64,000 nt of DNA from positions 17,127,501-17,191,500 of the forward strand of contig NC_088933.1 in NCBI RefSeq assembly GCF_038396675.1. Reading direction: 5' to 3'. This DNA comes from Hydra vulgaris (taxonomy: Eukaryota > Cnidaria > Hydrozoa > Anthoathecata > Hydridae). The translations under genes were made by a program, and so were the position numbers. The notes under the pieces are model-generated. The model was not told the DNA's origin. It did not search any database and worked only from the letters and a program-made list of their open reading frames with translations. Numbering within the stretch: the stretch's first letter is position 1; every line of letters begins with the position of its first letter. Shown here in pieces: positions 41,301 to 44,300 of this stretch.

Positions 41301-44300
41301 TACTCTTGATTCGAATAGGTATTTAATCGTTTGTTTTTTTATAAATTTTTCCTTCCTTAAACAATTGGTTTTTTTCCTGCATTTGAACATTTTTGCTAAT
41401 TGATTTTCTAAATCTTTTATTTTTCTTTCTTTTACTTTAGCTCCGCTTTAAAAATATTTTATCATTACAGAAGTCACTGCAGTTTTATACTGTAAAAGAA
41501 CACTAAATATTCGCGAATAGAGTATTAATCTTCTAAAATAAAAAAAGAATAATCACAAAAAAAAAGAAAGATCGCGAAAAAACAAATTTTAAGAAAAAAC
41601 TAATCGCGAAGGTGCGAAAAGTAATTGCGATACGCTTAATTCGAGCCCTGTAATGATTTACTTGTAAGTTTATTGGTAAATACCTAAAGTTATCCTTTAC
41701 CAAACCCAACCTACTGAACCCAACCTACTGAAGCCAACCTACTGAAGCCAACCTACTGAACCCAACCTACTGAAGCCTTGGTGAAGAGTAAAAATTTTTT
41801 TATTGAAACTTTTTTTGGAAAGTAATAGATTTTAGTCGGAAAGTAATATTTTCCAAGAAGAAGTAAAACAAAATTTACGGTTTGTATTTACTAACTTAAA
41901 TGTTTTTTAAAACATTGTAATATTCTTTTTTTTTTTATGAATATATGATTTTACAAACTTTTCCTAACTCTATGACTACAACATACAAACTTTTACAGTT
42001 AAGTTTACTATGAAAAATTTATCAGAAGTACTACTACTAAGATGTAGTAGGGTCAAACTATGCACCTCTACCACCGCTATGCTTTTCTACCATCACTTTG
42101 CACCTCTTGTTATGAAGTCACTATACCACTACTGCAGTCTTATAGAATATTATGTACAATGGAGAAACTATCTTTAATACACTTTTTGGTTTTACATAAT
42201 GTATGTTGTTGTGTGTCTGTGTGAATATGTGTTTAGGTGTGTAACTCACTGAATAAATACTGAAATCATACAGAGTTTTGGTCTATAACACCCTTTGCAA
42301 AATGTCTTTTAAATTATTTTAAAAATTTTAATGTTTTTATAAAACTGGATGATGTGTTTTTATATAAGGTTTATGTAGTTTCATTATTTTATTTGTTATA
42401 TGTTGAACACTTGAGTATCAAGTTAATCTTGATTTTCAAAGAGTTTTGAAGCAAGTTGTTCTAGTCAGGTTTGAAAAAAACCAGAGATATTCCAAAAATT
42501 ATTTTTCGATTTTTTAAATTGAATAACTGAATAACCAATTTTACACCAGTTATTTCATTATAAAATAAAATTTTTTCTTATTGCTGTAAAAAATCAATGT
42601 AACCTACTGAGATTATATATACTGTAAATTAAAATAATATGTAAATTAAAAAAAGCAAAAAGTCTAAAAAAACAAAAGCAAAAATCTTTATTAAAACTTT
42701 TATAAAATTTAGCAAAATTTTTTTCTTTAACAATAAGAAGCAAAGAAATCAAAGTTTGTGCACTTTAAAAAGCACAGATTATATAGTAGCTGTCACTTTA
42801 TAATCATGTTTTTATATTCAATATTTTACAAAGAATAGTTTTTCTTCATATTGCACCTACATAACTTCATATCTCAACACATTGTTGCAATAAGTCATTT
42901 GTTACTTCAGATTTTTGGAAAAATATTTTACAAAAATATTTTATATATCCTTTCCAATCGTAGTGTAAAAGTTGTCCTCGATGGACTCTTCTTCTTATTC
43001 TGTAACTTCAGGGGTTCCTCAAGGTTCTATCCTTGGCCCTATACTCTTTTTAATTTACATTAACAATCTTCCAGATATTCTCACATCTAAGGTGGCATTG
43101 CTTGCTGATGATACTACCATTTATTCTTGTCGTGATAAGAAACCAAAACCCTCTGATTGCTTGGAGGGGTCATTTGAGTTTGAAAAGGATCTCACTTCTG
43201 CTACAGTATGGGGGCTCACAGTGGCTGATGAACTTTAATTCAGATAAAACTAATTTTTTTTCAGCCAATCGGTTAATCCTAGAAGATGAAGAGTCATCTA
43301 CTCTTCATCTTCTAGGATTAAGTCTTACTTCCAATCTTTCTTGGAAACCATATATCAAATCAGTTGCAAAATTAGCATCTGCTAAGGTTGCATCTCTTTA
43401 TCGAGCTCGTCACTTTCTTACTTCGGATTCTATTCTCTATCTCTATAAATCTCAAATCCAGGTTTGTATGGAATACTGTTGCCATATCTGGGGCGGTTCT
43501 TCTAATGATACCCTTTCTCTTTTAGACAAGGTGCAAAAATGCATTGTAAACATAGTTGGACCTGCTCTTGCAGCCAACCTCCAACCATTATCACGTTGTT
43601 GTAATGTTGCTTCTCTTTCTCTTTTTTACAAATACTATAATGGGCACTGCTTTAAAGAGCTAGCATCTCTTGTGCCATCTACTAAAATTTATTCTCGTGT
43701 TACTTGTCATTCAATTAAGTGTCATCCTTTTTCTGTGACTGTTCCTAAGTGCTCCAAAAATGCTTATTCGTCTAGTTTTTTCCCTCGAACATCAGCTCTT
43801 TGGAATTCGCTTCCTTCATCTTGCTTTCCTGATTCATATAATTTGCAATCCTTTAAGTCGTCTGTCAATCGTTATCTTGCTCTACAATCTTCATCTTTTC
43901 TCTTTCAGTAACTTCCAGCTTTAATTAGTGGCTGCTTGCAGCCTTGTTGGAAGCAAAGATGTTTAAAGAAAAAAAAAAGTATATATTTTTTGTTTTGTTT
44001 TACAATTTCATTATTACAGAAAACACCTATATTTAAATTATGATCTCCAAAAAGAGAGTTAAACTTCAGGTATATACTACTATTACGAATATTTAAAGTA
44101 ATACAAAAGTCAACTAATACAAGTAAAAAAATTTTTTGTTTTTTGATTATTTTAGTTTGAGTTTTTTCTCTTACATTAATTTTTACTGGTTAGTAATAAA
44201 TAAACAACTAATAACAATTCAACTTGTTATATTATCTGAAAAATATAAAATACAAATTCATCTATATATAGGAATTGTCCCAGTTTTTCTGCAGAAGAGC

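Follow-up and report, generated by a model that had tools for sequence, protein, structure and literature searches.

The 21-bp hairpin in one 5'-truncated LINE copy of Hydra vulgaris (copy D) is very probably the scar of a single foldback, or snap-back, template switch in the chromosomal DNA of that copy. The event probably took place after the copy had been inserted. Copy D lies in a window of 64,000 nucleotides, the whole stretch of DNA that was analysed, together with two other copies of the element, A and C. One arm of the hairpin is an inverted copy of its neighbor, 52 nt kept by other copies are lost, the short palindrome at which the fold could start is found in relatives, and the hairpin is private to one copy. 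Foldback events of this kind seem to be repeated in this LINE family.

The two arms are exact reverse complements over 21 bp and are separated by 7 nt, as the initial annotation had claimed (Table 1); if the T-A pair that closes the loop is counted, the hairpin has 22 bp and a loop of 5 nt. Simulation of 30 sequences of 64 kb under a first-order Markov model gave arms of 15 bp at most for loops of up to 20 nt. The same annotation stated that A and C keep an ancestral segment of about 52 nt which in D was lost and replaced. This was borne out: both copies are intact, and between CAATCG and GAGTCA there are 52 nt in a homologue of the L005 type and 19 nt in D, a net change of -33. The outer junction has 0-3 nt of microhomology (a possible TTA) and one extra base. 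The ancestral seed, in one of its two forms, is present in 47 of the 69 homologous copies. Loop position 43297 is T in D and C in its closest relatives; together with the extra G at 43272 this requires additional changes, which counts against a single event. Other long perfect hairpins are also found in the window, where a hairpin in itself is not rare, and it is the known ancestral state, not the hairpin itself, that sets D apart. Those outside the LINE are situated at 272-323 (arm 24 bp, loop 4 bp), 8716-8778 (27 and 9), 45109-45163 (26 and 3) and 62195-62356 (50 and 62) and may be foldback scars or transposon ends.

Table 1. Positions in the window of the hairpin elements, of the LINE copies and of the possible target-site duplication.
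Feature	Position	Strand	Remark
Last ancestral bases CAATCG before the switch (point 1)	43266..43271	+	next 52 nt of homologues gone in D
Extra G, outer junction	43272..43272	+	unaccounted for by copying
New arm, inverted copy of 43301-43321	43273..43293	+	final 3 bases GAG also ancestral
Loop TCATCTA	43294..43300	+	among 69 homologous copies, TCATCTA in 25 and TCACCTA in 31
Template arm	43301..43321	+	found in hairpin-less homologues
Seed region, GAGT-CATCT-ACTC or GAGT-CACCT-ACTC at 43291-43303	43291..43304	+	ancestral short inverted repeat
LINE copy D, 5'-truncated, 3' end in poly-A (about 43969-43978)	42949..43979	+	homology limits against other copies
Possible 7-bp target-site duplication TATATAT, left copy	42942..42948	.	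weak: AT-rich DNA
Possible 7-bp target-site duplication TATATAT, right copy	43980..43986	.	weak: AT-rich DNA
Copy A, part homologous to D	17576..18412	+	ancestral segment kept; internal deletion
Copy C, part homologous to D	22038..23054	+	ancestral segment kept

We searched one assembly, of 911,502,276 bases (911.5 Mb) in 15 contigs. The hairpin junction of D, as a 27-mer with up to 3 mismatches, was found in 1 place, and a search for exact 12-bp arms around a loop of 4-12 nt also led to 1 place, which is the same locus. The ancestral left junction, as a 30-mer with up to 3 mismatches, was present in 5,466 places (2,775 + 2,691), and reversed-pattern controls gave 0 for all three patterns. This indicates that the hairpin of D is derived and, within the mismatch limits used, private, searches of this type being blind to any hairpin copy diverged further. 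The direction of change, which the initial annotation had called clear, is confirmed by these counts. Among the 42 regions compared, i.e. 39 fetched loci and copies A, C and D of the window, none other than D has this hairpin. The terminal inverted repeats of a DNA transposon were also considered and rejected, the hairpin having no other copy.

D is homologous to other copies from about 42948-42949 to about 43979. Its closest relative among the 42 sequences is A (707 of 730 aligned flank positions), and in the tree of these sequences A and D are sisters with a support of 0.922. The 500 bp on each side of D are unlike the surroundings of A; the two therefore look like separate insertions, and segmental duplication of A and D was rejected. 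Compared with A, D has an apparent inverted match of 23 bp, which overstates the template because A reads GGATTAACTC at the site of the GGATTAAGTC that is found in D and many relatives, and D's own 21 bp are preferred. A copy of 23 bp with a later C-to-G change was rejected as well, AAGTC being common in the group of D. The initial annotation had named the element CR1, which is a putative assignment. In copy A there is a match to the reverse transcriptase family PF00078 (E 5e-15). The hairpin of D lies within a frame of 285 codons free of stops, at 43054-43911, and the net loss of 33 nt keeps the downstream frame, probably by chance; no Pfam family was found for this frame at E 1. A functional hairpin or a protein reading was given no weight even though the open frame passes through the event, because the upstream frame of D already differs from that of A. 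Elsewhere in the window, a tandem repeat at 25504-26028 is open in all three forward frames, with runs such as HYFTS. The haplotype assembly of H. vulgaris AEP has 912 Mb in 15 chromosomes, and LINEs, with CR1 and L2 among the active ones, make up 16.7% (PMC12220107).

For the event at D we infer the strand, the order of steps, the enzyme and the timing as follows. A 3' end of the bottom strand, ending TAGATGACTC, would have folded onto itself by means of the ancestral GAGT-CATCT-ACTC (4 bp with a loop of 5 nt, or 3 bp without the closing T-A pair). A polymerase would then have added about 18 nt from 43304-43321, which with the 3-bp primer would give the arm of 21 bp. At CAATCG, 52 nt away, the extended end would have rejoined the original template, or the far end of a break; this junction has one extra G and no more than the 3-nt TTA microhomology. 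The switch points, mapped by eye, follow the order 1-4-3-2 of the four-point type, with one G left over. As a local reverse complement all 21 of the 21 nt of the new arm are accounted for, while control readings reach 6-8 nt.

The initial annotation had proposed to look for unique hairpins in other copies of the family. We scanned 39 loci and the window, and then 68 loci and the window (69 records), for perfect inverted repeats with arms of at least 10 and loops of at most 35, low-complexity arms being excluded. A repeat was taken as private if, of the homologues that keep both flanks, at least 85% lack it, at least 3 such homologues being required; L001, L041 and L042, which are D itself, were left out of the scan. 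Both scans gave the same 9 private inverted copies, namely D, L010, L015, L016, L022, L025, L026, L031 and L034, while the mirror-repeat control yielded 4, whose arms measure 10-12 bp. With arms of at least 13 there are 7 inverted copies against 0 mirror repeats, and with arms of 10-12 there are 2 against 4. By count the latter are not above the control, and the short events are therefore called from their alignment. In 7 events that were tested, the new arm is a local reverse complement over 10-22 nt, while reverse, complement and direct controls give 4-8 nt. In L025 and L026 the inverted copy retains bases of the homologues which have since been lost from the original arm, and in L015 (2598-2641) the order is copy, inverted copy, copy, as in a very small inverted triplication. 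Inspection added a tenth event in L021, where an inverted copy some 16 nt long, since altered, lies at the 5' truncation point of the insertion; it might stem from a snap-back as reverse transcription ended.

Several candidates were examined and left out of the count: a small inverted repeat of L015 at the site of D (AAAGG-TAGAT-CCTTT), boundary hairpins in L028, L030, L034 and at 34171 of the window, and, in L004, L006, L023, L037 and L039, private repeats that are short or AT-rich. Rows of L018 in the repeat listing were N bases and were excluded. Within 84.4 kb of shared repeat there are 7 perfect inverted repeats with arms of at least 13 and loops of at most 35, and the roughly 130 kb outside the shared repeat contain 33; mirror repeats within the same limits number 0 and 2, respectively. 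Some of the inverted repeats outside may be ends of DNA transposons. Two long ones, both outside the shared repeat, are situated in L020 (559-644, arm of 41 bp and loop of 4 nt) and in L040 (3733-3801, arm of 32 bp and loop of 5 nt).

The seeds, read by eye, are short palindromes of the homologues: AAACAGACGTCTGTTT for L016, GCTCTAAAGAGC for L026, AAGAG-CTAGCGT-CTCTT for L022 and TGCA for L015. Genome censuses with gapped patterns found 1 place at the seed of D, 6 at that of L016 and 4 at that of L022, with 0 in the controls. A single event in the whole genome means that the seed of D is no hot spot. At the other two seeds we fetched 8 further census places for comparison and, from differing outer switch points or loops, read at least 5 independent events for L016 and at least 4 for L022. 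Two of the copies, L075 and L077, are identical at 425 of 428 positions and lie on different contigs (C1:30942648-30943075 and C5:32405036-32405463). At the seed of L016 they have a common scar, a perfect palindrome of 60 nt with 30-bp arms and no loop. This near-identity together with the common palindrome indicates that a foldback scar was duplicated, and it was counted as one event. In L072 (C7:31960321-31960753) hairpins overlap in a cascade, their perfect arms measuring 31, 19 and 19 bp, which looks like the product of more than one switch within a single event.

The initial annotation attributed the change in D to replication template switching. One step that joins deletion and inverted copying does remain the simplest account, but the same product is expected from foldback repair of a double-strand break; both of these DNA-level mechanisms fit, and at D itself they cannot be separated. 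In such repair a break within the 52-nt segment would leave a right end which snaps back on 3-4 bp of microhomology, is extended by a polymerase of the delta or theta type and is joined to the left end. We regard this as possible, if rather doubtful. The seed of 3-4 bp, the insert of 21 bp, the loss of 52 nt and the outer junction of D are all in accordance with it, and L034 fits it too. Most foldback insertions at breaks in yeast measure about 5-34 bp, and their second junction has 0-5 bp, with a median of 2 (PMC11724301); human Pol theta can extend stem-loops from two terminal base pairs (PMC11292364). However, the yeast case has an imperfect 10-bp repeat and a 41-nt loop (PMC11724301), unlike the 3-4 bp and short loop here, and snap-back in C. 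elegans is described as a minor part of deletions with insertions (PMC5068794), which speaks against a Pol theta reading. In addition, 6 of the 8 events in L015, L016, L022, L025, L026, L031, D and L034 look in our own reading like net insertions with little or no flank loss, which end joining does not predict as a rule. Since most of the sister events are net insertions, for the whole class we slightly favour replication template switching over break repair.

The new arm lies on the 5' side in D, L016, L022, L031 and L021 and on the 3' side in L010, L015, L025, L026 and L034. This is our own reading of 5 against 5 events, from which the census events, 5'-sided by design of the pattern, were left out. 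The sides bear on an origin during reverse transcription, in which the first-strand cDNA would fold during target-primed insertion, copy itself and return to the RNA. The 5'-side arm of D has the polarity which this predicts, and so does the place of the inverted copy of L021 at its own truncation point agree with it, but the 3'-side arms in 5 of the 10 events argue against reverse transcription as the sole cause. The 8 events of the scan other than D were all found in 39 older loci and none in 29 younger ones, which also speaks against folding of cDNA, and we consider this origin improbable. The older loci comprise 76,349 bp of shared repeat with a mean divergence of 0.074 to the nearest compared copy, the younger ones 56,282 bp with 0.024. 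The split of 8 against 0, which rests on 8 events in two samples from different queries, that of the older sample containing the hairpin of D, has P 0.012 if events follow bases, the same if they follow copies, and P 0.19 if they follow bases multiplied by divergence. A query with the hairpin favours copies altered at that site (L034, perhaps L031), while L010, L015, L016, L022, L025 and L026 lie outside it. Arm sides and age split together, although numbers are small, favour a process that acts on chromosomal DNA over time. Dating by mismatches between arms was not used, as young events are favoured once arms must be perfect and part of the branch lengths predates insertion.

An artefact of the assembly or library is very improbable: the locus of D is known from one assembly, but the seeds differ among several events, later point changes stand in one arm of L025 and of L026 and the other arm keeps the bases of the homologues, and the AEP haplotype assembly, apparently the one searched, was made with HiFi and Nanopore reads (PMC12220107). 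That the hairpin form is an old subfamily variant common to many copies, which the initial annotation had named as the finding that would speak against its reading, has next to no probability, for although the different hairpin of L075 and L077 proves that scars can be duplicated, nothing of the kind was found for D, whose hairpin occupies a single place within the mismatch limits of the search.

The 8 events divided by about 7,000 mismatches to the nearest copy (5,675 + 1,325) give about 1.1 events per thousand substitutions, a rate that falls to 0.9 when L031 and L034 are left out. In the great apes the total is roughly 60 million substitutions. With the 4,017 template-switch events reported for them (PMC7954356), their rate would be about 0.07 per thousand. 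A tenfold excess in Hydra is no more than a lead, given the difference in methods, a small and in part biased sample, and a seed of D that was used once among thousands of copies. We tentatively suggest that short foldback switching could be a major recurrent process in Hydra, perhaps ten times as frequent per substitution as in great apes, that the same LINE palindromes are struck repeatedly, and that the thousands of sister copies can serve as an assay, the side of the arm telling an origin in reverse transcription from one at the DNA level. A high-copy LINE offers thousands of sister copies per site, and complex mutations can be polarised in it without a second species. The equal arm sides, and the fact that two of the three censused seeds were struck several times, mean that seed strength, loop size and rate are measurable by a census of the whole genome.

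Template switches which make hairpins are already known (PMC8794818). A literature search, in which few subscription papers were covered, found among the papers listed no report of them in Hydra or of their polarisation by LINE copies. The event at D resembles the four-point template switches of great apes in being a local reverse-complement copy polarised by relatives, and its order, 1-4-3-2, is one of the two majority patterns there, while its copied length of 21 exceeds the reported median of 12 and the polarisation comes from sister copies within one genome (PMC7954356). With foldbacks at breaks in yeast it shares a short inverted copy made from a 3'-end hairpin and a second junction of 0-5 bp, but the yeast locus used a longer, imperfect repeat of 10 bp and a 41-nt loop (PMC11724301), and at D no break is known. 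As in quasipalindrome correction (PMC7954356, PMC8604942), a pre-existing imperfect inverted repeat serves as the seed; at D, however, a repeat of 4 bp has become one of 22 bp with the loss of 52 nt, which exceeds the correction of mismatches. The order of copies in L015 is similar to that of small inverted triplications. In the published cases the mean unit is about 150 bp and the spacer 30 bp (PMC13334657), against arms of 17 bp in L015; D, unlike these cases, is not a triplication. Comparisons of species lack a further test which the element allows through its orientation, as snap-back of cDNA should be one-sided and processes at the DNA level need not be. The kind of mutation is known from great apes and yeast, and it is the apparently high rate and the recurrence in Hydra that make the interesting part.
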